Assembly: GCF_002161215.1 (NCBI RefSeq)
Contig: NZ_NFMB01000008.1
Span: 62,001 to 126,000 of the forward strand
Reading direction: 5' to 3'
Origin: Flavonifractor sp. An10
Lineage (GTDB): Bacteria; Bacillota; Clostridia; Oscillospirales; Oscillospiraceae
DNA length: 64,000 nt
Part shown: one piece after another, positions 14,871-54,539 of the stretch
How the letters are laid out: the number at the start of each line of letters is the position of its first letter
How positions within the stretch are numbered: position 1 is the stretch's first letter
The notes under the pieces: model-generated
What the model was told of the DNA's origin: nothing
Seen by the model: the letters and a program-made list of their open reading frames with translations, nothing else
The model's database searches: none
Position numbers and translations under genes: made by a program

Positions 14871-14876
14871 ACCTCT

Positions 14877-34675: not shown

Positions 34676-35779
34676 TTACTTGGAAGCCTTGACGGCGCGG
34701 ATGGCCTCGATGAGCATGGGGGTGACCTTGTAGAGGTCGCCCACGATGCCGTAGGAGGCAACGTCGAAGATGGGGGCGGTCTCGTTCTTGTTCACCGCGA
34801 TGATGCACTCGGAGTCCTGCATGCCCGCCAGGTGCTGGATGGCGCCGGAGATGCCCAGGGCCACATAGATGCGGGGGTGCACGGTCTTGCCGGTCTGGCC
34901 CACCTGGTGGTCGGCGGAGATCCAGCCCGCGTCAACCACGGCACGGCTGGAGCCAACCACGCCGCCCAGGACGCCGGCCAGCTCCTCGGCCAGCTTGATG
35001 CCGCCCTCCACGTCCTTGGAGATGCCGCGGCCCACGGAAACCACCACGTCGGCGCCGATCAGATCCACCATCTTCTTGGCGGCCTTCACGACCTCCACGA
35101 CCTCCACGTGGATGTCCTCCTTGGACAGCTTCACATCCACGTTCTCGATCACGGTCTTGGCAGCGCCGGCCTCGTCATAGGGCTGGGTCTGCATCACGCC
35201 GGGACGCACGGTGGACATCTGGGGACGGAACCGGGGGCAGATGATGGTGGCCATCAGGTGACCGCCGAAGGCCGGACGGGTCATCTTCAGGTTGGTGTTC
35301 TCCTCGAACTTGGTGTTGTCCACGTCGATGGTGGAGGTGGTCTTCAGGAAGGCCTTGTACTTCTCCACATCCACATCCAGGTGGGTGCAGTCGGCGGTCA
35401 GGCCGGTGTGCAGACGGGCCGCGCAGCGGGGGCCCAGGTCACGGCCGATGTTGGTGGCGCCAATCAGGAAGATCTCCGGCTTCTTGTCCTCCACCAGGTC
35501 GCAGATGACCTTGGTGTAGGCGTCGGTGGTGTACACGTCCAGCAGCTCGTGGTTGCAGTAGTAGACCTTGTCCGCGCCGTAGCCGCCCAGCGCCTTCAGG
35601 TAGTCCTCCTTGATGTCCTTGCCCAGCACCACGCCGCACAGCTCCACGCCCAGGTCGTTGGCCAGCTTCCGGCCCTCGCTCAGCAGCTGGTAGCTGGTGG
35701 ACATGATCACGCCCTCGCGCTGCTCACAGAATACCCATACGCCCTTGAAGGCGGCGGTGTCTTTACTATCAAAAGCCAT
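34676..35779 (-). CDS. etfA: Electron transfer flavoprotein, alpha subunit
   Basis: 367 residues. The N-terminal ETF domain (GVWVFCEQREGVIMSTSYQLLSEGRKLA) and the C-terminal FAD-binding domain (from about residue 245: VVSVGRGISKD, then GSSRAVVDAGW, GQTGKTVHPRIYVALGISGAIQHLAGM) are complete. It accepts or donates electrons to acyl-CoA dehydrogenase with EtfB; in clostridia such complexes may bifurcate electrons from NADH to ferredoxin and crotonyl-CoA. AAAGGAGAGC precedes the ATG. It is the last gene of the acd-etfB-etfA run. Slightly longer than the usual ~340 residues because of its N-terminus. Confidence 0.95.
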   Translation of the reverse strand: MAFDSKDTAAFKGVWVFCEQREGVIMSTSYQLLSEGRKLANDLGVELCGVVLGKDIKEDYLKALGGYGADKVYYCNHELLDVYTTDAYTKVICDLVEDKKPEIFLIGATNIGRDLGPRCAARLHTGLTADCTHLDVDVEKYKAFLKTTSTIDVDNTKFEENTNLKMTRPAFGGHLMATIICPRFRPQMSTVRPGVMQTQPYDEAGAAKTVIENVDVKLSKEDIHVEVVEVVKAAKKMVDLIGADVVVSVGRGISKDVEGGIKLAEELAGVLGGVVGSSRAVVDAGWISADHQVGQTGKTVHPRIYVALGISGAIQHLAGMQDSECIIAVNKNETAPIFDVASYGIVGDLYKVTPMLIEAIRAVKASK

Positions 35780-35798
35780 TGTGTTGCTCTCCTTTCAA

Positions 35799-36599
35799 TT
35801 AGATGATGTGCTTGTCGTTGAGGATGGAGACCAGCTTTTCCACGGTCGCCTTGTCAGCGCCCTCCATCATCATTCCGGCGCCCTTCACCGGGGGAGAGAA
35901 GGACTTGTACACATTCGTGGGAGAGCCCTTCAGACCGATGGTGTCCACATCGATCAGGGGATCGTCCTTCAGCGTCTCGTAGTTGTAGATCTCCAGAGGC
36001 TTCTGATAGCACTCCATGATGCCGCCCACGCTCATGTAACGGGCGGTGTTCAGCTCCTTCACGCAGGTGATCAGGCAGGGAGTCTGCACCTTGATGGTCA
36101 TGTAGCCGTCCTCCAGCAGGCGCTTCACGGTGACGGTCTTGCCCTCCACCTTGATCTCGGCGGCGTAGGACACCTGGGGCAGGTGCAGCTTCTCGGCGAT
36201 CTGGGGGCCCACCTGGGCGGTATCGCCGTCGATGGCCTGACGGCCGCAGAAGATGATGTCGTCATCCTCCACGCCGATCTTCTTCACAGCGGCGGCGAGG
36301 ATCTGAGAGGTGGCGTAGGTATCGGAGCCGCCGAACTCACGGGCGGACACCAGCACGGCCTCGTCCGCGCCCATGGCCAGCAGCTCGCGCAGCATGCCCT
36401 CGGCGGGCGGGGGGCCCATGGACACCACGACCACCTTGCAGCCGGTGGCGTCCTTGATCCGCAGGGCGGCCTCAACTGCCGCCAGGTCGTCGTGGTTGGT
36501 GATGGTCGCCATGGCGGCACGATCCATGGTGCCGTCTTCCTTCACCGCCACCACGCCGGACGTATCCGGAACCTGCTTCACACAAACAATGCATTTCAT
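35799..36599 (-). CDS. etfB: Electron transfer flavoprotein, beta subunit
   Basis: 266 residues, the typical length. It starts MKCIVCVKQVPDTSGVVAVKEDG and contains the conserved adenine-nucleotide-binding stretches VVVSMGPPPAEGMLRELLAMGADEAVLVS and FCGRQAIDGDTAQVGPQIAEKL. Forms the heterodimer with EtfA encoded 19 nt downstream; acd lies 21 nt upstream. The complex is cytoplasmic and passes electrons in butyrate-type acyl-CoA reduction. Confidence 0.96.
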   Translation of the reverse strand: MKCIVCVKQVPDTSGVVAVKEDGTMDRAAMATITNHDDLAAVEAALRIKDATGCKVVVVSMGPPPAEGMLRELLAMGADEAVLVSAREFGGSDTYATSQILAAAVKKIGVEDDDIIFCGRQAIDGDTAQVGPQIAEKLHLPQVSYAAEIKVEGKTVTVKRLLEDGYMTIKVQTPCLITCVKELNTARYMSVGGIMECYQKPLEIYNYETLKDDPLIDVDTIGLKGSPTNVYKSFSPPVKGAGMMMEGADKATVEKLVSILNDKHII

Positions 36600-36620
36600 A
36601 TTCTTTCGCTCCCCCGTTCT

Positions 36621-37763
36621 TTACTTCAGGCCCATGTTGCTGGAGATGACGATGCGCTGCACCTCAGAGGTGCCCTCATAGATCTCGGTGATCTTGGCGT
36701 CACGCATCATGCGCTCCATGGGATAGTCCTTGGTGTAGCCGTAGCCGCCGAACATCTGGAGGGCCTTGGTGGTGATCTGCATGGCGTTTTCCGAGGTGAA
36801 CAGCTTGGCCATGGCGGCCTCCACGGTGAAGGGCTTTCCGGCGGTCTTGAGCTCGGCGGCCTGATAGGTCAGCAAGCGGCCGGCCTCCACGGCCACCTTC
36901 ATGTCCGCGAACACGAACTGGGTGTTCTGGAAGCGGGAAATGGGCTTGCCGAACTGGACGCGGCCCTTGGTGTAGCCGATGGCCTCCTCCATGGCGCCCT
37001 CGGTGATGCCCAGGGCCTGGGCCGCAATGCCGATGCGGCCGCCGTCCAGGGTCTGCATGGCGATCTTGAAGCCCTTGCCCTCCTGGCCCAGCAGGTTCTC
37101 TTTGGGCACAATGCAGTCGGTGAACACCAGCTCGGCGGTGGGGGAGCCGTGGAGGCCCATCTTCTCCTCGTGCTTGCCCACGGAGTAGCCGGGGAAGCCG
37201 CTCTCCACGATGAAGGCGGAGATACCGCGGGTGCCCTTGCTGGGGTCGGTCATGGCGAACACCACGGCCACATCGGCCACATAGCCGTTGGTGATGAAGA
37301 TCTTGGAGCCGTTGAGGACATAGTGATCCCCGTCCAGCACCGCCGTGGTGGTGCCCTTGGAGGCGTCGGAGCCCGCGTTGGGCTCGGTGAGGGCGAAGGC
37401 CCCCACCTTGTGCCCCTCGGTGAGCATCCGCAAGTACTTCTGCTTCTGCTCCTCGGTGCCGTTGCGCAGGATGGGGTCGCAGCACAGGCCGTTGTGGGTG
37501 GCCACGATATCGCCGGTGGAGGCGCAGGCCTTGCTCAGCTCCTCAATGGCCAGCGCGGAGGACAGATCGTCCGCGCCGGAGCCGCCATACTCCTTGGGCA
37601 CGCACATGCCCATAATGCCGTAGCGGAACAGCTTCTCGATGTTCTCCCGGGGATACTCGCAGGACTTGTCCGTCTCGGCCGCGATGGGCTTTACCTCGTT
37701 CTCCGTAAAAGCGCGAACCATTTTTTGAATCAGCGTCTGCTCTCTTGTCAGATTAAAATCCAC
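36621..37763 (-). CDS. Acyl-CoA dehydrogenase (butyryl-CoA dehydrogenase-like)
   Basis: 380 residues, a full Acd fold. It has MDFNLTREQTLIQKMVRAF, then the FAD/substrate signatures GAFALTEPNAGSDASKGTTTA and FITNGYVADVAVVFA, QFGKPISRFQNTQFVFADM, and the C-terminal MFGGYGYTKDYPMERMMRDAKITEIYEGTSEVQRI with the catalytic Glu of short-chain members. The start is GTG at 37763, 10 nt after AAAGGAG. It lies directly upstream of etfB and etfA, so reduction of crotonyl-CoA or another enoyl-CoA through Etf is likely. The chain specificity is inferred from operon neighbours (AbfD). Confidence 0.93.
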   Translation of the reverse strand: MDFNLTREQTLIQKMVRAFTENEVKPIAAETDKSCEYPRENIEKLFRYGIMGMCVPKEYGGSGADDLSSALAIEELSKACASTGDIVATHNGLCCDPILRNGTEEQKQKYLRMLTEGHKVGAFALTEPNAGSDASKGTTTAVLDGDHYVLNGSKIFITNGYVADVAVVFAMTDPSKGTRGISAFIVESGFPGYSVGKHEEKMGLHGSPTAELVFTDCIVPKENLLGQEGKGFKIAMQTLDGGRIGIAAQALGITEGAMEEAIGYTKGRVQFGKPISRFQNTQFVFADMKVAVEAGRLLTYQAAELKTAGKPFTVEAAMAKLFTSENAMQITTKALQMFGGYGYTKDYPMERMMRDAKITEIYEGTSEVQRIVISSNMGLK

Positions 37764-37799
37764 TGTGGTACTACTCCTTTCCTGCAACTCCAGCAACAA

Positions 37800-37982
37800 T
37801 CAATTTCCTGTGCATGGTTTTAGTGGTATGTATGAGATTTCACGCATGGGTCTTGCCGGGCGGAATGGTTCAAAGGACACCTCCGGGAAGCAGGCCTCCA
37901 GGCTTTGTACCAACGCCGACCGGTCATAGCGGGGATTGCATCCGCCGCAATAGCGGACACCGACAACACAGTTATCCGGCAT
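37800..37982 (-). pseudogene. Truncated small CGGCNP-motif protein (remnant)
   Basis: A 60-residue frame starting MPDNCVVGVRYCGGCNPRYDRSA. I recall this Cys-rich CGGCNPRYDR start from small, conserved, uncharacterised clostridial proteins of about 100 or more residues that end in a second Cys motif. Here the similarity seems to fade after FPEVSFEPF, and the second motif is absent, so it looks cut short. The start is uncertain: AGAACCGCTGC upstream is not a good ribosome-binding site. It sits between abfD and the acyl-CoA dehydrogenase gene in the same direction. No function is claimed. Confidence 0.5.
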
Positions 37983-38149
37983 GCCGCGCCCGGGCCCGCG
38001 GCAGCGGTTCTCCGGCATGCCCGGGCGTCCCGCTGCGGCCGCGCAGCCGGGAGCGCACAGCCTCCGCACCTCTGCGATTCATACCGTTTCCCTCCTTGTC
38101 CAGATGAGAAAGGGGCGGCGGTCTCCCGCCGCCCCGGGGCTGTGGCTGT

Positions 38150-39601
38150 TTACTCCTTGATGTGGGCGATGGCCTTGGCCAGTTCTTTTTTGTGCTCCAG
38201 GTTGCCCTGGCGTGCGATCATGATGCGCTGGGCCTGGGGAGAGCCGGCGCCGTGCATGGACTCGGTGCGGTAACCCACCGCCGCCGTGCCCAGGGCCAGG
38301 TTCTCAATCAGCCGCAGAACCCGCAGACGGTTTTCGGTGGACACGGAGGCCACGCCCCGCAGATACTTGTCGATCACAGGGCCCAGCTTGGGATCGCGGA
38401 AGTCCGCCTCGGAGGGGGCGGTGACCACCAGGCCGCCGGCGATGTCCTCGGCCAGGCGGACGATCTCATAGGGGAATCGGGTGACGTTCTGCTTGCACAC
38501 ATTGGCCAGCAGCAGGTCGATGATGTAGTTGCCGCTCTCGGTGGGATGGCCCTCGGCGGAACAGGCGATGCCGCAGCAGTACAGGGTCTCGTTCAGGTGG
38601 GTCATCTCGATGAGCTTGTCCTTGATGTGGCTGGCCTTGGCCGCACCGTTGTAGTCGGCGGCCAGGGCGGCGGCGCCGATGAGCACGTCGCCCACGCCCA
38701 CCTTGCAGCCGCCGTAGCTCTGCCGGTGGTAGCCGGCGAACCGCTCCACCAGCATGCCGGCAAACTCGGCCTCGCCGTTCAGGAAGATTCGCTCATTGGG
38801 CACAAACACGTGGTCGAAGACGGTCAGGGCCTCCACCCCGCCGAACTCACTGTTGCCCACGTCCAGCTCGCTGCCCTCCAGCTTGCGGGTGTCGCAGCTC
38901 TGGCGGCCGACGATCATGTAGATGCCCGGGGTGTCCGCCGGCACGGCGAAGGAGACGGCGTAATCCCTGTCATCCGGCCCCATGGACTGGGTGGGCATGA
39001 CAATGACCTCATGGCTGTTGATGATGCCGGTCTGGTGGGCCTTGGCCCCGCACACCACCACGCCGTCAGGGCGGCGCTCCACCACGCGGAGGAACAGATC
39101 GGGGTCATCCTGGGCATGAGGCGCCTTGGAGCGGTCGCCCTTGGGGTCGGTCATGGCGCCGTCCACGGTCAGGTCGTTCTCCTGCACGTAGGCGGCAAAT
39201 TTCCGGAAGTTCTCGTGGTAGCCGGTGCCGTACTTCTGATCCACCTCATAGGTGGTGGAGAACACCGCGTTGAAGGCGTCCATGCCCACGCAGCGCTGGA
39301 AGCAGGCGGCGGTCTTCTGCCCCAGCAGCCGCTGCATCTTTACCTTCTTCACCAGATCCTCGGTGGACTGGTGGATGTGGGTGAAGCGGTTGACCCGCTT
39401 CCCGGTCAGGGGGGATACCGCGGTCATCAGATCCTGGTACTCCGGCTTCTGCGCCAGATCATAGGTCATGCGCACGCTGTTCAGCGCGGGGCGCAGGATG
39501 GGATCGTCCACGGGGTTGTCGATCTTCTTGCCGAACATGTACACCTGCATGTTCAGCTTACGGATGCTCTCGATGTACTGTTCTCCAGTCATAAGGGGCA
39601 T
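38150..39601 (-). CDS. abfD: 4-hydroxybutyryl-CoA dehydratase / vinylacetyl-CoA delta-isomerase
   Basis: 483 residues, full length for AbfD. It dehydrates 4-hydroxybutyryl-CoA to crotonyl-CoA through a ketyl radical using a [4Fe-4S] cluster and FAD. Cluster ligands are visible as Cys100, Cys104 (ACFQRCVGMDAF), His292 and Cys299 (YHRQSYGGCKVG), matching the known C99/C103/H292/C299 set of the Clostridium aminobutyricum enzyme within one residue. Operon with the acyl-CoA dehydrogenase and etfBA downstream gives a route to butyryl-CoA. Other family members (4-hydroxyphenylacetate hydroxylase) lack the cluster residues. Confidence 0.95.
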   Translation of the reverse strand: MPLMTGEQYIESIRKLNMQVYMFGKKIDNPVDDPILRPALNSVRMTYDLAQKPEYQDLMTAVSPLTGKRVNRFTHIHQSTEDLVKKVKMQRLLGQKTAACFQRCVGMDAFNAVFSTTYEVDQKYGTGYHENFRKFAAYVQENDLTVDGAMTDPKGDRSKAPHAQDDPDLFLRVVERRPDGVVVCGAKAHQTGIINSHEVIVMPTQSMGPDDRDYAVSFAVPADTPGIYMIVGRQSCDTRKLEGSELDVGNSEFGGVEALTVFDHVFVPNERIFLNGEAEFAGMLVERFAGYHRQSYGGCKVGVGDVLIGAAALAADYNGAAKASHIKDKLIEMTHLNETLYCCGIACSAEGHPTESGNYIIDLLLANVCKQNVTRFPYEIVRLAEDIAGGLVVTAPSEADFRDPKLGPVIDKYLRGVASVSTENRLRVLRLIENLALGTAAVGYRTESMHGAGSPQAQRIMIARQGNLEHKKELAKAIAHIKE

Positions 39602-39643: not shown

Positions 39644-40534
39644 TCAGATGAACGCGGCGAAGGGAGAGAGGGCCGACTCCTCCAGTTCCTCCTTGGTGTA
39701 CAGGCGGTCAAATCCGCAGATGATCCGGCCAGCAAAGGACTGGCCCGCCGCCAGAGAGAGCCCGTCCTGCAGGAAAGGCCTGACCTCTACGCCGTTCAGG
39801 TCGGGCTGAGGGGACACCTGCATGGCGGTCATGGTGCTATACGCGGAGACGGTCAGGGCTGCCTCGACGTGGGATAGCTCCGCCATGGGTTTAATCTCCT
39901 CCTTGTCAAAGACAAAGGTCTGGGGGCGGTTCGCCAGGGGGACGAAGGCCAGCTCTCCATAGGAGGTCTGGGCAACGGGAACTTTCTGCCCGCCCAGGAG
40001 GACCTCCGGACAGAAGGTGCGCAGCGTATAACCGGCGAATGACGGGGACTCTTGTAGCCGAAGAACTAAGGCGGAGGTGAGGGAGATGCAGGCATCCTGT
40101 TCCGGGGTAGCGAACAGGTCAATGACGATCCGGTTCAGGTTGACCCACATGACCCGCGCGCCCAGGGCACAGGCAATGCCCGCCGGGGTGCTCTCTGCCG
40201 GGAGGCGGCAGGAGAGAAACAGATGGTTCTCCCCGACTTCCTCCACGTTCCAGTGCCGGTGGGCCGTGGGGAGTGGGTGGCCGTTCAGCGTGCCGGTTAC
40301 CGCCCCCAGATCCAACCGGCCGGTCTGGTACTCTTCCAGGGTGTCATACCCGCACAGGACGTTGTGCATCTGCCCATCCCTGCCGTGGATGTGGATTCCC
40401 TTTATGGTGCATCCATAATCGGAGACCTCAATATAGTCGTTGGTGTTGTTCGGGATCCGGAAGATGGACACCTCCGCCCCGTCGACTGTCCCAAAGTGAG
40501 CCGTCACAATCTTCTGCTCCACTGGTACACTCAT
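39644..40534 (-). CDS. Aldose 1-epimerase (GalM)-like protein
   Basis: 296 residues of galactose-mutarotase fold. The start region IFRIPNNTNDYIEVSDYGCTIKGIHIHGRDGQMHNVLCGYDTLEEY is clear GalM. The segment where GalM has its first catalytic His (NGHPLPTAHRHWN) is altered and shortened, and the total is ~40 residues shorter than usual, so the substrate or activity may differ. Start uncertain: AAAGGA abuts the ATG at 40534, while a GTG four codons further in would have 12-nt spacing. First gene after the minus-strand sigma-54 promoter, ahead of abfD. Confidence 0.75.
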   Translation of the reverse strand: MSVPVEQKIVTAHFGTVDGAEVSIFRIPNNTNDYIEVSDYGCTIKGIHIHGRDGQMHNVLCGYDTLEEYQTGRLDLGAVTGTLNGHPLPTAHRHWNVEEVGENHLFLSCRLPAESTPAGIACALGARVMWVNLNRIVIDLFATPEQDACISLTSALVLRLQESPSFAGYTLRTFCPEVLLGGQKVPVAQTSYGELAFVPLANRPQTFVFDKEEIKPMAELSHVEAALTVSAYSTMTAMQVSPQPDLNGVEVRPFLQDGLSLAAGQSFAGRIICGFDRLYTKEELEESALSPFAAFI

Positions 40535-40585
40535 TCCTTTCTGTCGTTGTGAATTATCTGCGAAAAACCAGCTGTCAATTGAACA

Positions 40586-40601
40586 AGCATATTTCATGCC
40601 A
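40586..40601 (-). promoter_or_regulatory. Sigma-54 promoter, galM-abfD-acd-etfBA arm
   Basis: Minus strand reads TGGCATGAAATATGCT: the -24 GG and -12 GC are spaced exactly as in sigma-54 promoters. It gives a ~40-nt leader before the galM-like ATG. It is one arm of a ~19-bp inverted repeat shared with the plus-strand promoter. Confidence 0.75.
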
Positions 40602-40629
40602 ACTATGAAAAGCTGCCGGAAGCAAAAGT

Positions 40630-40645
40630 TGGCACGAAATGTGCT
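40630..40645 (+). promoter_or_regulatory. Sigma-54 promoter, cupin-aldolase arm
   Basis: TGGCACGAAATGTGCT matches TGGCAC-N5-TTGCW with one mismatch. It points at the cupin gene (leader ~105 nt). Confidence 0.8.
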
Positions 40646-40759
40646 TATTTCATGAGCAAAGACGCAGGGCAGCCCGCCCACCTCCACGAGGCGGCTGTTC
40701 CACCCGGGGGGAAAGCCGGCTGCCTGCTGCGGCTGTGAAAACAGAAAGGATGCGTGACT

Positions 40760-41236
40760 ATGGCTAAAATCATGTACGGGAACTACAACGACCTGCCCTG
40801 GATGCCCAACCACAAGAAAGACGTGGATGGCAAGGTGATGTGCTACATGAAGTGTTTCGCCATGGAGGCCGCCAACATGCACATGTGCATCGGCAAGATG
40901 TACAACGGCATGCCCATCGGCCCCCACACCCACCCCAACGAGCAGATCGCCACGGTGGTGAAGGGCGAGTGCGACTACTGGGTGGACGGCGTGCCCTACC
41001 GTCTGGCCCCCGGCTGCTGGGTCAACGTTCCCCCCCACTATGTCCACTATGCCCACGTCTATCGCTCCCAGGGCCCCTGCTACCAGATGGACATCATGTC
41101 CCCTAAGCGCTCTTCTAGCTGCGACGAGTACAAGGCCTGGCTGAAGGCGGAGTTTGACATCGACTGGGACGCCGGTGGACGGGAAGTGCCCGACCTGACC
41201 GCGCCCCAGGATCCCAAGGCGGAGGTCAGGGCGTAA
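40760..41236 (+). CDS. Cupin-domain protein
   Basis: 158 residues. A single cupin beta-barrel: MPIGPHTHPNEQIATVVKGECDYWVDG (motif 1 with two His and a Glu as metal ligands), then LAPGCWVNVPPHYVHYAHVY (motif 2 with His). Such small cupins act as isomerases, dioxygenases or lyases on sugars and carboxylates; the substrate is not readable. ATG at 40760 lies 9 nt after AAAGGA. It opens the plus-strand arm of the catabolic island and is followed by a hairpin and the HpcH/HpaI aldolase. Confidence 0.85.
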   Translation: MAKIMYGNYNDLPWMPNHKKDVDGKVMCYMKCFAMEAANMHMCIGKMYNGMPIGPHTHPNEQIATVVKGECDYWVDGVPYRLAPGCWVNVPPHYVHYAHVYRSQGPCYQMDIMSPKRSSSCDEYKAWLKAEFDIDWDAGGREVPDLTAPQDPKAEVRA

Positions 41237-41241
41237 ATTCC

Positions 41242-41271
41242 GGCGGGCCCCGCCGCCGGGGCCCGCCTTTT
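41242..41271 (+). terminator. Hairpin after cupin gene
   Basis: GGCGGGCCCC and facing arm followed by TTTT, 6 nt after the stop. The next gene, 50 nt on, has no clear promoter, so this may act as a partial terminator within an operon. Confidence 0.65.
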
Positions 41272-41321
41272 CCCTCATTTTATCCGGCTGCCGGCCGGGA
41301 AAGAAAGGAATCTCGTCCGCT

Positions 41322-42119
41322 ATGAAAATGCGTAACTTTGTCAAGGAAAAAATCGCCGCAAACGGGTATGCTTTGGGAGCCTTTGTGGCCTCCGGATCCC
41401 CCACCAACTGCGAATTGCTGGGTCTCAACGGCCTGGACTTCATCATCATCGACTGCGAGCACGCCGAGACCAACACCGAGACCATCGTGCAGATGTGCCG
41501 GGCCGCTGAGATGTACGGCACCGCCCCCCTGGTGCGGGTGTATGACCCGGACGATGGCCCCATGATGAGCCGGATGCTGGACGTGGGCCTTCACGGGGTC
41601 ATGGCTCCCCTCATCGGCACCCCGGAGCAAGCACAAAACCTGGTGAATTTCACCAAATACGCCCCCCTGGGCAAGCGGGGCGCCAACGGCGGCCGCGGCC
41701 CCCGCTGGGGCCTCTATGAGGACTATATCCACGTCGCCAACGACAACTGCCTGGCCATCGCTCAGTGCGAGTCCATCGAGGGGCTGGAGAATGTGGAGAA
41801 GATTGCCGCCACGCCCGGCCTGGATGCCATTTTCATTGGTACGGGTGACCTGTCTCTGGAGATGGGCATCGCCTTCAAGGCCGACTCCTCCGCCAGCCAC
41901 ACGGTGGACGCCCCTCAGATCGTGGCTGCTATTGACCGGGTGCTGGCCGCCTGCCGGAAGAATCATGTCATCCCCGGCATCGTCACCGCCAGCGCAGAAG
42001 ATGCTGCCCGCCGCATTCGCCAGGGTTTCCAGTTTGTCACCTGCATGAACGATCTGGGATTTTTCCGGAGCCGCAGTGCCCAGCATATCAACACCGTGCG
42101 GGAACTGGCCGGAAAATAG
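41322..42119 (+). CDS. HpcH/HpaI-family (class II pyruvate) aldolase
   Basis: 265 residues. Family motifs: GAFVASGSPTNCELLGLNGLDFIIIDCEHAETN (metal/pyruvate-binding region), VRVYDPDDGPMMSRMLDVGLHGVMAPLIGT (Arg and the VxAP motif), IAQCESIEGLENVEKIA (metal-binding Glu) and IFIGTGDLSLEMG (Asp ligand). These enzymes reversibly cleave 2-keto-3-deoxy or 4-hydroxy-2-oxo acids to pyruvate and an aldehyde. With the enolase-superfamily dehydratase further downstream it could form a dehydrate-then-cleave pathway for a sugar acid. Confidence 0.92.
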   Translation: MKMRNFVKEKIAANGYALGAFVASGSPTNCELLGLNGLDFIIIDCEHAETNTETIVQMCRAAEMYGTAPLVRVYDPDDGPMMSRMLDVGLHGVMAPLIGTPEQAQNLVNFTKYAPLGKRGANGGRGPRWGLYEDYIHVANDNCLAIAQCESIEGLENVEKIAATPGLDAIFIGTGDLSLEMGIAFKADSSASHTVDAPQIVAAIDRVLAACRKNHVIPGIVTASAEDAARRIRQGFQFVTCMNDLGFFRSRSAQHINTVRELAGK

Positions 42120-42144
42120 ACCGCCCTGTTCGGCCGAAACAGCC

Positions 42145-42176
42145 AAAAAACAGGCGGAAAAAGCCGCCTGTTTTTT
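42145..42176 (+). terminator. Intrinsic terminator of the cupin-aldolase operon
   Basis: ACAGGCGG/CCGCCTGT stem flanked by A6 and T6, 25 nt after the aldolase stop. It works in either direction by sequence. Confidence 0.9.
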
Positions 42177-46466: not shown

Positions 46467-46482
46467 AGGCCGCAGAGACAAA

Positions 46483-46616: not shown

Positions 46617-47801
46617 GTGAGGCCTACGAAAATTGTAGAACCGGAAAAGAAATATGACTTCTGGCTGAGAGGGGGCCATGTGATCGATCCTGCACGGAAT
46701 CTGGATGATGAGATGGATGTTCTGATTTCAGGATGCAGGATCGTGCCCGTACCCGAAAACGGCCATATCGACCCCGCGGATGTGAAGGAGCTTATTGACT
46801 GCTCCGGCTGTTATGTGTTTCCCGGCCTGATCGACCACCATGTCCACTTTTCCTGGAATACCTCTGGGATTACACCGGATCTGTTCTGCCTTCCCAACGG
46901 AGTTACCGCAGCCTGCGACGCGGGGAGCATAGGCACCAATGCCTTTGAGAACTTTGTTCGCTTCCGCATCCTGCCGGCCATCACCACCCTGCAGGCCTCG
47001 GTCAACGTGACCACCGGAGGTATGGCCGGGGCTGGGTATATGGAGAACATCGACCCGGCTCTCTATGACGAGCGGGCCATGACCTATCTGTTTGACCAAT
47101 ACCGGCCCTATCTCTATGGGTTCAAGCTGCGCATTGGTAAGGACATCTCCGAGGGTATGGGGCTGAAGCCCCTGGAGGAGAGCGTGAAACTGGCCCGCAA
47201 GTTTCATACCCGGCTTTCCCTCCACGCCACGTGCCCTCTGGAACCTGTCCCGGAGATCGTGAACTGTCTGGGCCGGGGGGACGTGCTATGCCACACTTTC
47301 CAGGCAAAGGGCCCCTACAGTATTCTGGACGAGAACGGCAGCATCTATCCGGAAGTTTGGAGCGCCCGGGAGCGGGGCGTCCTCTTCGACAGCGCCCAGG
47401 GCCGCATTCACTGTTCCTTCCGCGTGGCCAGGGCTGCCGTTGAGCAGGGTTTCCTCCCCGATGTGATCAGCACCGACCTGACCACCTTCAGCGTTTATCA
47501 GGAGCGTCTGTTCTCTCTGCCTGTCACCATGGCCCGCTTCTTGGCGCTGGGCATGAGCTTATACGATGTGGTTCGCTGCTGTACCGCCACTCCCGCCGAG
47601 CTCATGGGGATGGAGGAGAAGATCGGTACCCTTCGCCCGGGGGCTATGGCAGATGTAGCCATCATGAAGCTGGAAACAAGAAAATTTGAATTCCAAGACT
47701 CTTATGGCAACCATCTGCCCGCAGCCCAGCTCCTGCTGCCCCAGATGACCATCAAAGCCGGGCGGTGCTGCTGGCGGAACACTGCGTTTGCCGCCTTCTG
47801 A
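46617..47801 (+). CDS. Amidohydrolase-family enzyme (dihydroorotase/deacetylase-like)
   Basis: 394 residues. The metal motif GLIDHHVHF follows the small N-terminal beta-sandwich (DFWLRGGHVIDPARNLDDEMDVLISGCRIV). FKLRIGKDISEG carries the bridging Lys position, LSLHATCP and LCHTFQAKG the His ligands, and PDVISTDLTTF the catalytic Asp. It resembles the uncharacterised amidohydrolase/deacetylase group related to dihydroorotase and adenine deaminase. It probably opens a ring or an amide of the imported compound. The start GTG at 46617 is the best in-frame option but sits close to AAAGGA (2-3 nt), so the start is uncertain. Confidence 0.82.
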   Translation: MRPTKIVEPEKKYDFWLRGGHVIDPARNLDDEMDVLISGCRIVPVPENGHIDPADVKELIDCSGCYVFPGLIDHHVHFSWNTSGITPDLFCLPNGVTAACDAGSIGTNAFENFVRFRILPAITTLQASVNVTTGGMAGAGYMENIDPALYDERAMTYLFDQYRPYLYGFKLRIGKDISEGMGLKPLEESVKLARKFHTRLSLHATCPLEPVPEIVNCLGRGDVLCHTFQAKGPYSILDENGSIYPEVWSARERGVLFDSAQGRIHCSFRVARAAVEQGFLPDVISTDLTTFSVYQERLFSLPVTMARFLALGMSLYDVVRCCTATPAELMGMEEKIGTLRPGAMADVAIMKLETRKFEFQDSYGNHLPAAQLLLPQMTIKAGRCCWRNTAFAAF

Positions 47802-47811
47802 CGGTGATGGC

Positions 47812-49257
47812 CTACCACTCCAGTCCGTAAAGCTTGGCCTTCCGGGCCACGGTGGGCTGGGAGGTGTTCAGCGCCTGGGCCGCCTTATAGGTGGTGCCGT
47901 AGCGGGTGAGGGCCTCCTTGAGCAGCTTCTTTTCGTAGTCGGCCACCATATCCTTCAAGGAGGAGCCAGAGGGCTCCAGTCGGAGCGCTGCTCCATCTCC
48001 GTTCTCCAGGATCGCCATCAAGCGGGAGGCAGTGAGCCAGTGTTCTTCCCCGATGATCACAAGGCGCTCCAGCAGGTTTTCCATCTCCCGGATGTTTCCG
48101 GGCCACTGGTATTCCTTCATGATCTGCAGAGCCTCTTCGGTAAACTTCTTCTCTCTGCCGTATTTGGCGTTGAATTTCTCTAGAAAGTGCGTGGCCAGCA
48201 GAGGGATGTCGTCCCCCCGCTCCCGCAGCGGCGGGATATGGAGGGGAACCAGGTTGAGACGGTAGTACAGATCCCGGCGGAAGCTGCCCTCCTCCACCAT
48301 AGACTCCAGGTTCTGGTTGGTGGCGGCGATAAGACGCACGTCAATGGGAATGGTGTTGGTTCCGCCCACCCGGATGATCTCCCGCTCCTGCAGAGCACGG
48401 AGCAGCTTGGGCTGGAGTGCACGGGGCAATTCCCCTACCTCGTCCAGCAGCAGGGTGCCGTGGTTGGCCAACTCGAACATACCGGGCTTACTCTTCACTG
48501 CCCCGGTGAACGCGCCCCGTTCATAGCCGAACAGCTCGCTCTCCATCAGGGATTCTGGGATGGAGGCACAATTCACCCGGATAAAGGGCTTGCCCTTCCG
48601 GTTGCTGCGCTGGTAGATTTCGTTGGTGAGAACCTCCTTGCCCACGCCAGACTCCCCTGTGATAAGCACGGTGACATCCGTACCTGCCACATATTCCACG
48701 GTATTCATCAAAGCCAGCATCTGCGGGCAGTTGCCGATCACGTTCTGGGATGCGGCCATCTTGCTGCGGTAGAATTCCAGTTCCTCAGAGATCAGCTTGT
48801 TTTTCTCTATGGCGCTTTGCAGATCATCGCACAGCTGGGAAAAGTTGGTCAGATCCCGGCACCAGGTGAGGATGTACTGCAGCCTCCCCTCCTGAAAGAG
48901 AGGGATACTGGTGAGCATGAACCGATTTTTAGTAGAAGAATAGGCGAACATGGACACCCGTTTCTGCTTCTGCAGGGCGGTAAGAGCAATGGAGTCGAAC
49001 ATTTTCTGGTCAAAGTGGGTGAACTGGGCGGCTCGGTTGTCCGCATCCTTCTCGATGGAGAAGTAGAAGCCCTGGTTTCCCTTACTGATGGCGTCGTTGA
49101 TGTAGAGGCCAACAGCGTTTTCCCGGGGCAAACCGATGAGCTGCTCCCAAGCTCGGTTGGCAAATACCAGGATCCCGTCGGTGTTGATGATGTGGATGGG
49201 ATCCTCCAGCGCGTCCAGAATGGCATACAGGTCGATATTCAGACCGTCAAAATCCAT
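47812..49257 (-). CDS. Sigma-54-dependent activator with PAS domain (EBP1)
   Basis: 481 residues: PAS domain (about 8-130, ILDALEDPIHIINTDGILVFANRAWEQLIG), then an AAA+ domain with Walker A GESGVGKE (201-208), the sigma-54-contacting GAFTGA (248-253) and arginine-finger region FRRDLYYRLN, then a Fis/TyrR-type HTH at the C-terminus (YGTTYKAAQALNTSQPTVARKA). It activates -24/-12 promoters such as those at 40.6 and 42.4 kb. I start at 49257, because AGGAGG is 6 nt upstream; the longer version abuts it. Own sigma-A promoter at 49291-49319. Its PAS domain probably binds a pathway compound. Confidence 0.95.
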   Translation of the reverse strand: MDFDGLNIDLYAILDALEDPIHIINTDGILVFANRAWEQLIGLPRENAVGLYINDAISKGNQGFYFSIEKDADNRAAQFTHFDQKMFDSIALTALQKQKRVSMFAYSSTKNRFMLTSIPLFQEGRLQYILTWCRDLTNFSQLCDDLQSAIEKNKLISEELEFYRSKMAASQNVIGNCPQMLALMNTVEYVAGTDVTVLITGESGVGKEVLTNEIYQRSNRKGKPFIRVNCASIPESLMESELFGYERGAFTGAVKSKPGMFELANHGTLLLDEVGELPRALQPKLLRALQEREIIRVGGTNTIPIDVRLIAATNQNLESMVEEGSFRRDLYYRLNLVPLHIPPLRERGDDIPLLATHFLEKFNAKYGREKKFTEEALQIMKEYQWPGNIREMENLLERLVIIGEEHWLTASRLMAILENGDGAALRLEPSGSSLKDMVADYEKKLLKEALTRYGTTYKAAQALNTSQPTVARKAKLYGLEW

Positions 49258-49290
49258 TTCCATCCTCCTGCACATTTTTGTTTAAATTTA

Positions 49291-49319
49291 ATTATAACAT
49301 TTCTACCCGGGCCTGTCTA
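49291..49319 (-). promoter_or_regulatory. Sigma-A promoter of EBP1
   Basis: Minus strand TAGACA (49319-49314), 17 bp, TATAAT (49296-49291). The regulator is thus expressed by the housekeeping polymerase while its targets use sigma-54. Confidence 0.8.
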
Positions 49320-49404
49320 TGAAATAATTCAATTTTAAATCAAATGCCGCGCCCGGTGCCAATGGCGCGCCGCTGCCCGGCATCTTGCCAAGGAGGTAAT
49401 TTCT

Positions 49405-50283
49405 ATGGACAGAGAAAAGCTTTTGAAAGGCGTCATCGATATCCACGTGCATGCGGGTCCCTCTGTGGCCGCACGTGAACTGGACGCCGCCGACATGCTG
49501 AAGGAGGCGGAGGCTGCCGGTTACCGTGGCTTTCTGGTGAAGGATCACTACTTTCCCAGCATGATGGGCTGCCAAATGGTACAGAACCACCTGGGCAACG
49601 GCAGCGTGCAGGTATTCGGCAGCATGTGCCTAAACAACGCCATGGGACTGTTCAACCTGAACGCCGTGGACGTGGCCTACGGCATGGGCGCCAAGATGAT
49701 CTACTTTCCCACTGTGTCCAGTAAGAATCACATCGATGCCCACAAAGGCCATTTCGCCGGTGCGGGGAAGATGTCCGTGCCTGAGACCCCGGTGGTCTAT
49801 GTGGACGAGAACGGTCAGTTGGATCCCGCCGCTGTGCGGGTTCTGGAGTACATGGCCGAGAAAGACATGGCCCTGGGCACCGGCCACGGCAGCGCCCGGG
49901 AGGTGGACGTCTTGGTTCGGAAAGCGGTGGAAGTTGGCGTGAAGAAGATCCTGGTCAACCACCCTCACTTCCACATCGGCGCTACTTATGAGCAGATGCG
50001 CCAGTGGGCCGCTCTGGGTGCCTACATCGAGCTGAACGTGTGTGTGTTCTCCGAGGGCTCCAAGATGGGCCCCCTGCCCACCTCTATCCTGGAGGAAATG
50101 CTCTTGGAGGTGCCCCACGACCGGATGGTACTGGACTCTGATATGGGCCAGAAGGGCAATGGCTCCCCCGTGGAGGGCATGTACAACTTTATGTGCCTGA
50201 TGATGGAGCGTTTCGGGATCACTGAAGAGGAACTGGAGATTATGGCCAAGAAGAACCCAGCCATCCTGATGGGGCTGGAATAG
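49405..50283 (+). CDS. DUF6282-family amidohydrolase-like protein
   Basis: 292 residues. The N-terminal IDIHVHAGPSVAARELDAADMLKEAEAAGYRGFLVKDHYFP gives an HxH metal pair and a Lys/His site. Later ALGTGHGSAREV and LVNHPHFHIGATYEQM supply further His ligands and DRMVLDSDMGQKG the Asp, in the order expected of a TIM-barrel metallohydrolase. This matches what I know of the uncharacterised DUF6282 family. AAGGAGG lies 8 nt before the ATG. It begins the second plus-strand block of the island, 28 nt ahead of the LarA-like gene. Confidence 0.82.
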   Translation: MDREKLLKGVIDIHVHAGPSVAARELDAADMLKEAEAAGYRGFLVKDHYFPSMMGCQMVQNHLGNGSVQVFGSMCLNNAMGLFNLNAVDVAYGMGAKMIYFPTVSSKNHIDAHKGHFAGAGKMSVPETPVVYVDENGQLDPAAVRVLEYMAEKDMALGTGHGSAREVDVLVRKAVEVGVKKILVNHPHFHIGATYEQMRQWAALGAYIELNVCVFSEGSKMGPLPTSILEEMLLEVPHDRMVLDSDMGQKGNGSPVEGMYNFMCLMMERFGITEEELEIMAKKNPAILMGLE

Positions 50284-50310
50284 GCCCGCAGACGTGGAGG
50301 TGGAGTCCAG

Positions 50311-51537
50311 ATGTCTCAGACTTTCCGCCTGTGGCAGAACGCATGGAGGGACGACCCGGAGGCCTCCGTTATCCTAGAGCTGCCGGAGGACTGGATTGTC
50401 ACAGAGTACCGGATGCCGGCGGATAACCGCAAACCGCTGACCGGGGAGGAACTGGCTGACCGCATCCGGCATCCAGTGGGCATGCCATCCATTCGATCCT
50501 TGGCGGCTGGCGGCCGGGAGGCCGCAATTGTGTTCGACGACCTGAGCCGCGGCACGCCGGCAGGCGTGCTGGTGCGGCTGGTCATTGAGGAACTCCTGAC
50601 CGGGGGTCTGGGCCGGGAGCACATCCGCCTGCTCTGTGCTCTGGGAAACCATGCACCGCTGACCAGGGCCGACTTCGTACAGAAGCTGGGGGAGGAGCTG
50701 GTGGAGCAGTTCCCCATCTATAACCACAACCCCTATGAGAACCTGGTCTGCGTCGGCACGGATCGCTTTGGAGACGAGGTTCTGGTAAACCGAGAGTTCA
50801 TGCAGTGCGATGTGCGCATCGGCGTAGGCTCGGTTTCCCCTCACCCCATGAACGGCTTCGGCGGCGGAGGAAAGCTGATCTTTCCCGGCCTGGCCGGTAT
50901 CCGTACCACCCATGCCAACCACACTCGCCGAGAGTTTCGGCCCTTCTCCCCGGAGCCCTGCGGGCTGCGCCGGGATATTGAGACCATGACGGAGATGGTG
51001 ATGCCCTTCTTCAAGATCGATGCCATTCTCAACTCCCGGCTGGAGATCGTGGAACTCAGGGCGGGCGAGCCCCGACAGGAACACCGACAGGCAGTGGCCC
51101 TCTCCATGGAACTGAACGGAATGCACCGGGCGGAGGGCACACGGGATGTGGTTTTTGTCAACGCCAATGCCAAATACAACGAAGCACTGATTGCGATCCG
51201 TATTGCTGCCATGGATCTGAAACCCGGGGGTGACGTCGTGCTCGTCAACCACTGCCCGGCAGGGCAGGTGGTCCATTACCTGTACAGCGCCTTCGGCAGC
51301 GATTACGGCGGTGGCTGCTGGCAGCCATACGACAGGCGGCCTCGGTCGGAGATCGGGCGGATCATCTACTACACTCCCTACCCGGACGTGGCCAGCCGGA
51401 TGAGTCTGAGCGAACCTGATAAAGTGGTGTTCGCGAAAACCTGGAACCAGGTAATGTCCCTGTTGAGGGCGCATGGGCCGGAGACGCGGGCCTCCGTCAT
51501 CACTGACGGAACGATCTCCTGCTTTCTGCCCTCCTGA
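50311..51537 (+). CDS. LarA-like nickel-pincer racemase/epimerase
   Basis: 408 residues. LarA N-terminal domain motifs FDDLSRGTP and ALGNHAPLT (His114) are followed by HPMNGFGGGGKLIFPG with His178 and Lys188, and HANH (His201/204). This aligns with the LarA active set H108/H174/K184/H200 at a constant offset of ~4, so the covalent nickel-pincer cofactor attachment Lys is kept. The family racemises 2-hydroxy acids by hydride transfer. The substrate is likely a 2-hydroxy acid from this pathway. No larB/larC/larE cofactor genes are in the window, so they must be elsewhere. Confidence 0.85.
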   Translation: MSQTFRLWQNAWRDDPEASVILELPEDWIVTEYRMPADNRKPLTGEELADRIRHPVGMPSIRSLAAGGREAAIVFDDLSRGTPAGVLVRLVIEELLTGGLGREHIRLLCALGNHAPLTRADFVQKLGEELVEQFPIYNHNPYENLVCVGTDRFGDEVLVNREFMQCDVRIGVGSVSPHPMNGFGGGGKLIFPGLAGIRTTHANHTRREFRPFSPEPCGLRRDIETMTEMVMPFFKIDAILNSRLEIVELRAGEPRQEHRQAVALSMELNGMHRAEGTRDVVFVNANAKYNEALIAIRIAAMDLKPGGDVVLVNHCPAGQVVHYLYSAFGSDYGGGCWQPYDRRPRSEIGRIIYYTPYPDVASRMSLSEPDKVVFAKTWNQVMSLLRAHGPETRASVITDGTISCFLPS

Positions 51538-51582
51538 TACCAACCTTAAAAGCAACCGATTCTGAACAAAGGAGCGATTGAC

Positions 51583-52767
51583 ATGAAAATTACCAGCATT
51601 GACGTGTTCCTTGTCACCATTGGCCAACCCTCCGTCCCTGGAAGCCCTTGGAACCCGGTGGTCGTGCGCATCAACACAGAGGACGGCATCAGCGGCTACG
51701 GCGAGGTGGGTCTGGCCTACGGCGACACCAAAGAGTCCGCAGTGGGCATGTGCCGGGATTTTGCCAAGCTGATCATCGGCATGGATGCCATGAACAATGA
51801 GGCCATTTGGGCCCGCCTGCACAACACCTTCTGGGGCCTGGGCGGCGGCCCGGTGGTCTACGGCGCCATGAGTGCCATTGACATTGCCCTGTGGGATATC
51901 AAAGGCAAGGCGTTTAATACCCCTGTCTACAATCTGCTGGGCGGCAAGACCAATCAGAAGCTGCGGGCCTATGCCAGCCAGATTCAGTTTGACTGGGGCA
52001 AGGTGGCCAAGCCTCTTATCTACCCCGAGGAGTATGGCGAGGCCTGCATCAAGGCCAAGGAGGATGGCTATGACTGCGTCAAGGTAGACCCCCTGTGCTT
52101 CAACATGCAGGGCAAGTACAAGGGGTGGCCCTGCAGCGGCATCCTCCAGCAGAACCAACTGAAAATCGCCTATGAGCGCGTCAAGGCCATCCGCGATGCT
52201 GGCGGCCCTGACATGGACATTATCATAGAGCTCCATTCTCTCACTGATGCCAACTCTGCCGTGCAGCTGGCACGGGCCGTGGAGGAGCTGGGTATCTACT
52301 ACTACGAGGAGCCCACCATGCCCATGAATGTGGGCAATATGAAGGAGATCGCCCAGCGTATTAACATCCCTGTGGCCAGTGGTGAGCGCATCTACACACG
52401 TTGGGGCTACCGGCCCTTCCTTGAGGAGCACGCCCTCCATGTCATCCAGCCGGATCTGGGCAACATGGGCGGCCTCACCGAGGGCAAGAAGGTGTGCGAC
52501 ATGGCCCGCGTGTATGACGTTGGCGTCCAGGTTCACGTGTGCGGCGGTCCCCAGGCTACGGCAGCGGCCCTCCAGCTGGAGGCGGTCATTCCCAACTTCC
52601 TGATCCATGAGCACCACCAGGCAGCCCTGCTGGAGGCCAATATCCTTACTGGCACACACGATTACCAGCCTGTCAACGGCTACTTCACTGTACCCGACCT
52701 ACCCGGCCTCGGCCAGGAGCTGAGTCAGAAGGCGATGGATACCGCCATCAAAGTCACCGTGAAATAG
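51583..52767 (+). CDS. Enolase-superfamily dehydratase (mandelate racemase/muconate lactonising type)
   Basis: 394 residues. The N-terminal capping domain (KITSIDVFLVTIG...) is followed by the barrel with GAMSAIDIALWDIKGK, a Lys-rich second strand region (GYDCVKVDP), metal ligands IIIELHS and YEEPTMP and VASGERIYTRWG, and a His in HVCGGPQATAAALQ. The pattern resembles acid-sugar dehydratases (galactonate/mannonate type). It would dehydrate an aldonic or other 2-hydroxy acid to a 2-keto-3-deoxy acid, a substrate type for the HpcH/HpaI aldolase. The exact substrate is not determined. Confidence 0.92.
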   Translation: MKITSIDVFLVTIGQPSVPGSPWNPVVVRINTEDGISGYGEVGLAYGDTKESAVGMCRDFAKLIIGMDAMNNEAIWARLHNTFWGLGGGPVVYGAMSAIDIALWDIKGKAFNTPVYNLLGGKTNQKLRAYASQIQFDWGKVAKPLIYPEEYGEACIKAKEDGYDCVKVDPLCFNMQGKYKGWPCSGILQQNQLKIAYERVKAIRDAGGPDMDIIIELHSLTDANSAVQLARAVEELGIYYYEEPTMPMNVGNMKEIAQRINIPVASGERIYTRWGYRPFLEEHALHVIQPDLGNMGGLTEGKKVCDMARVYDVGVQVHVCGGPQATAAALQLEAVIPNFLIHEHHQAALLEANILTGTHDYQPVNGYFTVPDLPGLGQELSQKAMDTAIKVTVK

Positions 52768-52841
52768 AAAACACCGCGCACATGCCCGGCCGCGCTGCGG
52801 GTCACGCAGGGCGGCCGGGCGTTCCAGAAGGAGATTCAGTC

Positions 52842-53765
52842 ATGAAAAAAGTAATTATCACGGCCGCCGTGGTGGGTACCGCTCATATGGCCAGCATGAG
52901 TCCGTATTTCCCGGTCAAGCCGGAGGATATCATCCAGCAGGCTGTGGACGCCTGTGCCGCCGGTGCTGCATCCATCCACATCCATGGTCGAGATCGGGAA
53001 ACGGGGGAGCCAACCTCTGACATCGGCCTGATTCGGGAGGTGGTCAGCGGGATCAAGGAGCGATGTGACGCCATCATCTGCATCACTACGGGTGGAAGCC
53101 AGATGATGACGGTGGAGGAGCGTATCTCCGTCGTCCCTGCCCTTAAGCCGGAGTTGGCCTCCTGCAACGCCGGTTCCATGAATTTTGTGCTCTCTGATCT
53201 TGTGTCCCACCTGAAGCCGGACGATCCGGAGTGGGAATACGAGTACCTGGGCGGTACCTACGATAATGTATTTGCCAATACCTACTACGGCATTGAGACC
53301 TATATCAGAACCATGCAGGAGAACAGCACTGTCCCGGAATTTGAGGTCTACGATGCGGGCATGATCAACAACATCGCCTATTTCCGGAATAAGGGTATCC
53401 TTACTGGCCCTGTGTACATCCAGTTTGTCATGGGGATCCAAGGCGGCATCCCCGCTACGGTGGACAACTTGGTTTTCCTGCGAGCCACAGCGGAGCGCCT
53501 GCTGGGGGACAGTTTCACCTGGTCTGTGGCCGCCGCAGGGAAGCATCAGATGCCCATTGCCGCAGCAGCGCTTGCCATGGGCGGCAACGTGCGCGTGGGA
53601 CTTGAGGACAATCTGTATATCCGCCCCCACCAGTTGGCCCGCTCCAACGCCGAGCAGGTGCGCGCGGTTGCCACGATGGCTGGGATTTTGGGACGCGAAG
53701 TAGCCACACCGGATGAGGCGAGAGCAATCCTGGGCCTGAAGGGCAAGGATCAGGTCAACTATTAA
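52842..53765 (+). CDS. BKACE-family beta-keto acid cleavage enzyme
   Basis: 307 residues. BKACE features: KVIITAAVVGTAHMASMSPYFPVKPEDIIQQAVDACAAGAASIHIHGRD (HxH zinc ligands), ITTGGS, ELASCNAGSMNF (Glu ligand), YDAGMINN and RVGLEDNLYI near the end. These zinc enzymes convert a beta-keto acid plus acetyl-CoA into acetoacetate plus a new CoA ester. It can therefore feed CoA esters to central metabolism and to the Acd-Etf arm. AAGGAG is 9 nt before the ATG. The specific beta-keto acid is unknown. Confidence 0.93.
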   Translation: MKKVIITAAVVGTAHMASMSPYFPVKPEDIIQQAVDACAAGAASIHIHGRDRETGEPTSDIGLIREVVSGIKERCDAIICITTGGSQMMTVEERISVVPALKPELASCNAGSMNFVLSDLVSHLKPDDPEWEYEYLGGTYDNVFANTYYGIETYIRTMQENSTVPEFEVYDAGMINNIAYFRNKGILTGPVYIQFVMGIQGGIPATVDNLVFLRATAERLLGDSFTWSVAAAGKHQMPIAAAALAMGGNVRVGLEDNLYIRPHQLARSNAEQVRAVATMAGILGREVATPDEARAILGLKGKDQVNY

Positions 53766-53777
53766 GGGGGAGTTACC

Positions 53778-54539
53778 ATGGAAAAATACGATTGGACTGA
53801 CATAACAGGCCGTCTTGCCCGGCTGCTACGGCCCCAGACCACCCCAGTGGGTATGAAGTGGATACGCACGGAGGAGGAACTCGACGCCATCCCCAAGGTG
53901 CGTATCCACGACAAGCATCTGCCCCCCTGCACCATCGTCAGCCATGCGGCCCAGTTCAACTGGACCAGTGCGTGCAGGGCTGAAAACGTCCACGCAAACT
54001 ATTGCCGGGGCATCAACGGCATGTTCGCTCCTGACGAGAAGTGGTATTCCGGCAAGATGTTTGAGAACGTGTGGTACGACAATCTGGAGGCGTCCAGGGC
54101 CCACAACCGGGCTTTGGATTGCGTGCCGCCGGAGTACGTGGCCTTGGTGGCCTCCCCTCTGACAGCGGGGCGTATCCAGCCCGACGTATGCGTACTCTAT
54201 CTCTCGCCCGCCCAGGCATTCCTATTTCTGGCCGGGTACCAGTACCACGAGTACGAGAAGCTGGAGTTCACATTTGTGGGAGAGTCCACCTGCTCGGACT
54301 CCTGGGTGCGCACCTTCCTCACCGGCAAGCCCGCCATGGCTCTGCCCTGCTACGCGGACAAGAAGTTCGCCGGCGTGGGAGAGAACGACCTGCGTATCAC
54401 CGTCACCCCGGCGGGCCTGGTGCGGGCTGTGGAAGGGCTGGAGGGCCTTTACAAAAGCGGACTGCGCTATCCCATTGGCTCTTATAGCCTGACCAGCGAC
54501 ATTCTTGCCGGCCTGCCTGAGCATTATCTGGAATTCTAA
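53778..54539 (+). CDS. DUF169-family protein
   Basis: 253 residues. The DUF169 start pattern ITGRLARLLRPQTTPVGMKWIR is followed by LPPCTIVSHAAQF and a CRG motif (YCRGINGMF), and by later Cys residues (ESTCSDSW, LPCYADKKF). Members occur beside redox and one-carbon genes, but their biochemical job is unsettled. It lies 12 nt downstream of the BKACE gene as the last gene of the plus-strand arm. It may bind a metal or Fe-S centre; that is a guess from cysteines only. Confidence 0.82.
   Translation: MEKYDWTDITGRLARLLRPQTTPVGMKWIRTEEELDAIPKVRIHDKHLPPCTIVSHAAQFNWTSACRAENVHANYCRGINGMFAPDEKWYSGKMFENVWYDNLEASRAHNRALDCVPPEYVALVASPLTAGRIQPDVCVLYLSPAQAFLFLAGYQYHEYEKLEFTFVGESTCSDSWVRTFLTGKPAMALPCYADKKFAGVGENDLRITVTPAGLVRAVEGLEGLYKSGLRYPIGSYSLTSDILAGLPEHYLEF

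Follow-up and report, generated by a model that had tools for sequence, protein, structure and literature searches.

A Sigma-54-Controlled Module for the Probable Catabolism of a Sugar-Acid-Like Compound Beside Butyrate-Type Genes in Flavonifractor sp. An10

Gene Content of the Locus

The window analyzed here is a 64,000-nucleotide stretch of Flavonifractor sp. An10 (contig NZ_NFMB01000008.1, positions 62,001 to 126,000), and our subject is a run of catabolic genes between window positions 34676 and 54539. An earlier note had described this run as one island linking a carboxylate to 4-hydroxybutyryl-CoA/butyrate chemistry. The single island was not borne out, because base composition together with conservation and linkage in relatives divide it at about 39.6 kb. 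In our reading, positions 39644–54539 form a self-contained catabolic module and the AbfD-Acd-EtfBA genes (34676–39601) form a separate module of butyrate type; as a whole, with the pathway proposed below, we give this reading somewhat better than an even chance (a probability of roughly 0.55).

The right-hand module opens with a GalM-like gene on the minus strand (39644–40534), divergent from a plus-strand cupin gene (40754–41236; PF07883). The plus strand continues with an HpcH/HpaI class II aldolase (41322–42119; PF03328, best PDB match 1dxe), a metallo-beta-lactamase (MBL)-fold hydrolase (42519–43265; PF12706/PF13483, PRK00685/UlaG-like, under the NCBIfam cut-off), a tripartite ATP-independent periplasmic (TRAP) transporter and a PRK12394-like amidohydrolase (46617–47801; 417 bits, cut-off 442). 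The transporter consists of the solute-binding protein DctP (43338–44492), the small permease DctQ (44572–45177; PF04290) and the large permease DctM (45174–46466; TIGR00786). A sigma-54 activator follows on the minus strand (47812–49275), and beyond it five plus-strand genes encode a DUF6282 amidohydrolase-type protein with an HxH motif (49405–50283; PF19799), a LarA-type 2-hydroxyacid epimerase/racemase (50311–51537; PF09861), an acid-sugar dehydratase type of the MR/MLE group of the enolase superfamily (51583–52767; PF13378/PF02746), a beta-keto acid cleavage enzyme (BKACE) of long-insert type (52842–53765; PF05853) and a DUF169 protein (53778–54539; PF02596). Family searches thus recovered the enzyme families that had been listed for the locus, with the exception of the GalM-like protein, a weak assignment which matched one subfamily model, PRK11055, at 22.9 bits over 66 residues (cut-off 240) and whose four orthologous sequences gave no Pfam match.

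The left-hand arm lies entirely on the minus strand and comprises EtfA (34676–35779), EtfB (35799–36599), the acyl-CoA dehydrogenase Acd (36621–37799) and the 4-hydroxybutyryl-CoA dehydratase AbfD (38150–39601; 818 bits by phmmer to 1u8v). AbfD retains C100, C104, H292 and C299, the CxxxC, His and Cys of 4-hydroxybutyryl-CoA dehydratase, which we take to be cluster ligands. Against the equivalog models for acryloyl-CoA reductase AcrABC, EtfA and EtfB score above the cut-offs (NF042970 and NF042971) and Acd falls below (AcrC model, 553.6 bits, cut-off 640).

Conservation and Base Composition of the Module

Relatives were sought by scanning genomes with five aligned LarA proteins, which returned 79 loci. 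Three other Oscillospiraceae genomes share the right-hand module and its gene order: a Flavonifractor metagenome-assembled genome (MAG; locus L063, truncated by contig ends on both sides), Oscillibacter sp. 1-3 (L064) and an Oscillibacter MAG (L065). With the window included, at least four carriers are known. Gene boundaries in the relatives are approximate, coming from our own gene caller. Protein identity between the window and the three relatives is 64–93% in the main gene comparison and 95–99% for the cupin. The GalM-like gene is divergent from the cupin gene in all four loci, at only 44, 44, and 37% identity to that of the window. Where DctM and the amidohydrolase are neighbors in the window, all three relatives have a further permease gene in between; the one checked, in L064, is PF03547. 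No close LarA relative was found in five listed congeners (300 genomes of the family were searched), two of which have weak matches (E ~1e-22). In the Flavonifractor MAG (L190, 454–3416), the GalM-like gene overlaps by 4 bases an enoate-reductase/BaiCD-type gene; this flavoenzyme is of the BaiCD/bilirubin-reductase kind and scores under the cut-offs of those models.

GC content at third codon positions (GC3) averages 77.5% in the 14 module genes vs. 90.5% in 31 other window genes longer than 450 bases (Mann-Whitney p 5e-7). Since GC3 differs from the other window genes in this way, the module was probably acquired horizontally; cupin and DctM are its sole genes in the host range (88–89%). The four arm genes, at 90.0%, are not distinguishable from the host (p 0.48).

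Sigma-54 Control

For the right-hand module, the sigma-54 control claimed in the earlier note has strong support. The window was scanned for TGGCAC-N5-TTGCW, with expectations from 40 first-order Markov simulations. A perfect match lies 5′ of the MBL-Dct genes (42402–42417, plus strand), where 0.025 perfect matches are expected per simulated window. Further sites lie 5′ of the cupin gene (40630–40645, plus strand, one mismatch) and of the GalM-like gene (40586–40601, minus strand, two mismatches). Across the window four sites were found at one mismatch or fewer vs. 2.8 expected, and 22 at two or fewer vs. 36.5 expected. As there is no enrichment at this last level, the weaker sites rest on their position, and each of the four loci has sites at these three places (twelve in total, three of them perfect). 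The module thus holds both marks of a sigma-54 regulon, a −24/−12 promoter and an activator with a GAFTGA motif (at residue 254), and that activator is present in 4/4 loci. A sigma-70-like promoter match precedes the activator gene (49319–49291, 11/12 positions), in a scan whose total of seven matches equals chance. Terminator-like hairpins number 23 overall vs. 13.9 expected, and one of them follows HpcH.

Two sigma-54 activators had been proposed for the island and both exist. The second (54849–56810, minus strand), however, lies past 54539 and is not beside the module in L064 or L065, the two relatives whose DNA reaches that side. With a GC3 of 55% it was perhaps acquired separately.

Relationship to the AbfD-Acd-EtfBA Arm

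The two arms are not conserved together in any of the three module-bearing relatives, the very outcome that the earlier note had named as telling against its link to 4-hydroxybutyryl-CoA and butyrate. In Oscillibacter sp. 1-3 they lie on separate contigs of 670 kb and 813 kb, the AbfD arm being accompanied by rpoN, activator, crotonase, and CoA-transferase genes. They are also on different contigs in the Oscillibacter MAG, in which no AbfD occurs within the 14 kb examined beyond the module start; each Oscillibacter genome has one AbfD copy, on another contig than the module. The Flavonifractor MAG (2.3 Mb, possibly incomplete) has the module and no AbfD match at E 1e-40. Conversely, AbfD adjoins Acd without the module in 7/10 loci examined (L174, L175, L176, L178, L179, L181, and L182). 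AbfD matches at E 1e-60 were found in 15/20 genomes of the genus, the window genome counted.

An integrated pathway would nonetheless make one route of both arms, with the aldolase freeing succinic semialdehyde in the manner of HpaI, followed by its reduction to 4-hydroxybutyrate and conversion of this, via AbfD, Acd, and Etf, to butyryl-CoA. In its favor HpaI is among the four aldolase models matched, all under cut-off, and 42 bp separate the GalM-like stop from the start of AbfD on their shared strand, making sigma-54-driven read-through into AbfD possible. LarA also lies near AbfD-like and Acd-like genes in 5/83 LarA loci, all from Dehalococcoidia. This proposal has to contend with the unlinked arms or missing AbfD in 3/3 relatives, the AbfD-Acd pairs that stand without the module, the differing base composition of arm and module, and a terminator-like hairpin after AbfD (38135–38112) that separates it from Acd. 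We therefore regard an integrated pathway as quite improbable. Read-through offers a possible weak link between arm and module in the window genome, and a butyrate link beyond this juxtaposition is not supported.

Several other loci deserve mention. In the five Dehalococcoidia loci (L084, L085, L102, L135, and L141), LarA neighbors an AbfD-like gene (46–49% identity) and acyl-CoA dehydrogenase-like genes. A further AbfD, 89% identical to the first, is encoded on a different contig of the window genome (L142, C1, ~6500–15000), and genes for a sigma-54 activator, NifU-like, glycerol-dehydrogenase-like, and CoA-transferase proteins lie nearby. The Acd genes closest to that of the window in five relatives (L154–L158; genomes G064, G254, G016, G155, and G210) lie ~1 kb or less from a contig end and may be repeated copies that break the assembly. 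Beyond the arm, at 30457–31776 and 31985–34162 on the minus strand, the window encodes two paralogous proteins with an extracellular contractile injection system (eCIS) core domain, the longer of which also matches PF15521; the pair would be contractile-injection-type cargo.

The LarA-Type Protein, Dehydratases and DUF169

The LarA-type protein matches PF09861 (Lar_N) at 150 bits (cut-off 23.3) and has no Pfam match past this N-terminal domain. Its best score against the named NCBIfam LarAH groups (malate, lactate, and others) is 169.8 bits, short of the cut-off of 500. H114 is kept in 87/88 aligned rows, H178 in 85/88, and both K188 and H204 in 88/88, with R80 conserved too. We take the first two to be the catalytic histidines, K188 to be the lysine that holds the nickel-pincer nucleotide (NPN) and H204 to be the nickel histidine.

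The genes around LarA were compared over 83 loci, L039–L042 being excluded as duplicates of L073, L074, L080, and L086. A gene of a dihydroxy-acid dehydratase family lies within 6 kb in ten of them, and the types belong to three unrelated families: MR/MLE in six (the window, L063–L066 and L073, where the gene is on the other strand), IlvD/EDD in two (L068 and L069) and UxaA/GarD in two (L067 and L071, the latter by BLAST only). The same queries found no match in 22 control loci totaling 342 kb. On a LarA tree of 81 rows, two loci having been dropped for proteins under 250 residues, the ten all belong to a single clade of 18 rows, which also holds eight loci without such a gene. The dehydratase label requires three changes on this tree vs. 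9.6 when shuffled, and 0/500 shuffles were as low, four of the loci being near copies. Because the closest LarA relatives cluster near dehydratase genes in this way, a C2-epimerase feeding a dehydratase is the best reading of the LarA protein.

The neighboring MR/MLE protein is of the acid-sugar dehydratase (GalD) type, with the E-x-H, EEP, and GER motifs, presumably metal ligands, and the D/H dyad recovered at positions 215, 241, 266, 289, and 316 in alignment with 2o56 and 4e6m. It scores 228.8 bits against the galactonate dehydratase equivalog, below the cut-off of 311. Among genomes of the class this MR/MLE type occurs at E 1e-90 in 5/391 and DUF169 in 17/291. DUF169 is present in all four of the MR/MLE genomes besides that of the window vs. 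16/290 overall (hypergeometric 6e-6, uncorrected for relatedness). These four represent four families and the two genes are not adjacent in them; DUF169 also occurs without this MR/MLE type, at the same threshold, in 12 further genomes. One locus (L073, from the same record as L039) brings together DUF169, LarA, and two MR/MLE genes. Across 21 aligned DUF169 sequences one cysteine is invariant and another nearly so, and the confidently predicted structure of DUF169 has no clear relative among the PDB chains compared.

The BKACE Protein

BKACE adjoins MR/MLE in all four loci and aligns over its full length with BKACE15 (8rip), whose tested substrates include C5–C6 beta-keto acids (PMC11961710). 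From these two facts one could propose that the key C–C cleavage of the module is made by BKACE on a beta-keto acid of this size, with LarA, MR/MLE, and HpcH only preparing or salvaging side products. Yet no module enzyme obviously makes a beta-keto acid, and family searches of the module found no CoA-transferase or thiolase, which leaves this proposal unlikely.

The best NCBIfam match of BKACE is the 3,5-dioxohexanoate:acetyl-CoA enzyme (409 bits, cut-off 430), which would suit a pathway for phloroglucinol or another polyketide-type aromatic ring with BKACE as triacetate acetoacetate-lyase. According to one source, the lysine-type enzyme KCE carries Glu14 and the triacetate acetoacetate-lyase Trp16 (PMC10470551). 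The specificity column of the module protein holds Ala in the window and L063 and Val in L064 and L065, neither Glu nor Trp, whereas another BKACE of the window genome (L050) has the lysine-type Glu. Family searches also found no reductase or cyclase in the module, and the cyclase-family gene that stands beside a Trp-type BKACE sits elsewhere in the genome (L049). An aromatic-ring pathway is thus very improbable for the module. In L049 itself (contig C11, ~6300–10100), a BKACE that has the Trp of the triacetate lyase is encoded together with a cyclase-family protein and a short-chain dehydrogenase, and these genes are candidates for phloroglucinol degradation.

Proposed Pathway

Taken together, a sigma-54-controlled, sugar-acid-like catabolic module is supported, and the gene content makes it rather likelier than the reverse that this module would carry out the import, hydrolysis, C2-epimerization, dehydration, and aldol cleavage of a sugar-acid-like hydroxy acid. 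The TRAP system would import a hydroxy acid. This would probably be a sugar acid, either as such or acylated or as its lactone, which the MBL-fold and amidohydrolase-type proteins may open or de-acylate. The LarA-type nickel enzyme would then invert C2, fitting the stereochemistry to the MR/MLE enzyme, which would dehydrate the 2,3-dihydroxy acid to a 2-keto-3-deoxy acid, and the HpcH aldolase would split this into pyruvate and an aldehyde. BKACE might finish a branch giving a beta-keto acid and DUF169 might assist the dehydratase branch. The order of import, epimerization, dehydration, and aldol cleavage, already proposed in the earlier note, draws what support it has from gene context.

A number of points weigh against this reading. 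HpcH (nearest NCBIfam models GarL and HpaI), MR/MLE, the amidohydrolase, the MBL-fold protein, LarA, and BKACE score under cut-off against all the named equivalogs that they match, and BKACE is without a clear place in the proposed order. No sigma-54 site was found 5′ of DUF6282, which opens the LarA-MR/MLE-BKACE-DUF169 group, and a terminator-like hairpin (41242–41267) lies between cupin and HpcH. Four of the ten dehydratase-neighbor loci are copies of this module, leaving seven independent contexts, and 73/83 LarA loci have no such dehydratase within 6 kb. Lastly, searches for LarB and LarC, the makers of the LarA cofactor, recovered both from the window genome and from the Flavonifractor MAG (G314) and neither from the Oscillibacter genomes (G315 and G316), two of the four module genomes.

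LarA may therefore go without its known cofactor in Oscillibacter. More broadly, among 50 genomes with this LarA or a related one, 18 have no LarC above cut-off, and for 16 of the 18 the same holds for LarB; many of the negative genomes are MAGs and may be incomplete, although an isolate draft of 4.5 Mb is among them. Three of the four records titled chromosome are without both genes, and the NPN residues of LarA are kept regardless of LarB/LarC presence. It thus becomes of interest how LarA-type enzymes could obtain a cofactor where neither LarB nor LarC can be detected. A fuller version of the scheme, which we offer speculatively and judge doubtful as a whole, is a non-phosphorylative sugar-acid pathway in which a nickel-pincer epimerase would feed an enolase-superfamily dehydratase, DUF169 would be a dedicated and possibly metal- or cluster-binding partner of that dehydratase type, and the Oscillibacter epimerase cofactor would be scavenged, made otherwise or not NPN.

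Comparison With Known Systems

A literature search of partial coverage, which does not prove absence, returned no description of this gene set. Like the phloroglucinol cluster of Clostridium scatologenes, the locus places a BKACE-family enzyme in an anaerobic clostridium; unlike it, the module has no reductase, cyclohydrolase or dehydrogenase that we could find, and its specificity residue differs (PMC10470551). LarA homologs have been described as D-gluconate 2-epimerases (GntE) (PMC7583248, PMC11770544). The window protein shares with them the LarA N-terminal domain and both catalytic histidines, which fits a 2-hydroxyacid epimerase, but it is under every NCBIfam LarAH cut-off and only its N-terminal domain is matched in Pfam. 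The minus-strand arm resembles the AbfD-Acd-Etf operons of Oscillospiraceae, with 67–73% identity for AbfD and 79–91% for Acd where the two are adjacent, but the crotonase, CoA-transferase, rpoN, and activator genes seen beside the arm in relatives such as L174 were not found beside it in the window.

Non-phosphorylative aldonate pathways include the rhamnonate, fuconate, and galactonate types. Like these, the module clusters a lactonase/hydrolase, an enolase-superfamily dehydratase and a pyruvate aldolase; it differs in that no sugar dehydrogenase was found and in being sigma-54 controlled. It would represent a compact gut-bacterial pathway with four known copies, one of them in the named isolate Oscillibacter sp. 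1-3, and would tie an unassigned LarA clade and the uncharacterized DUF169 and DUF6282 families to dihydroxy-acid dehydration. Compared with the aldonate pathways, what the module adds is a LarA-type nickel epimerase, BKACE, DUF169, and DUF6282.

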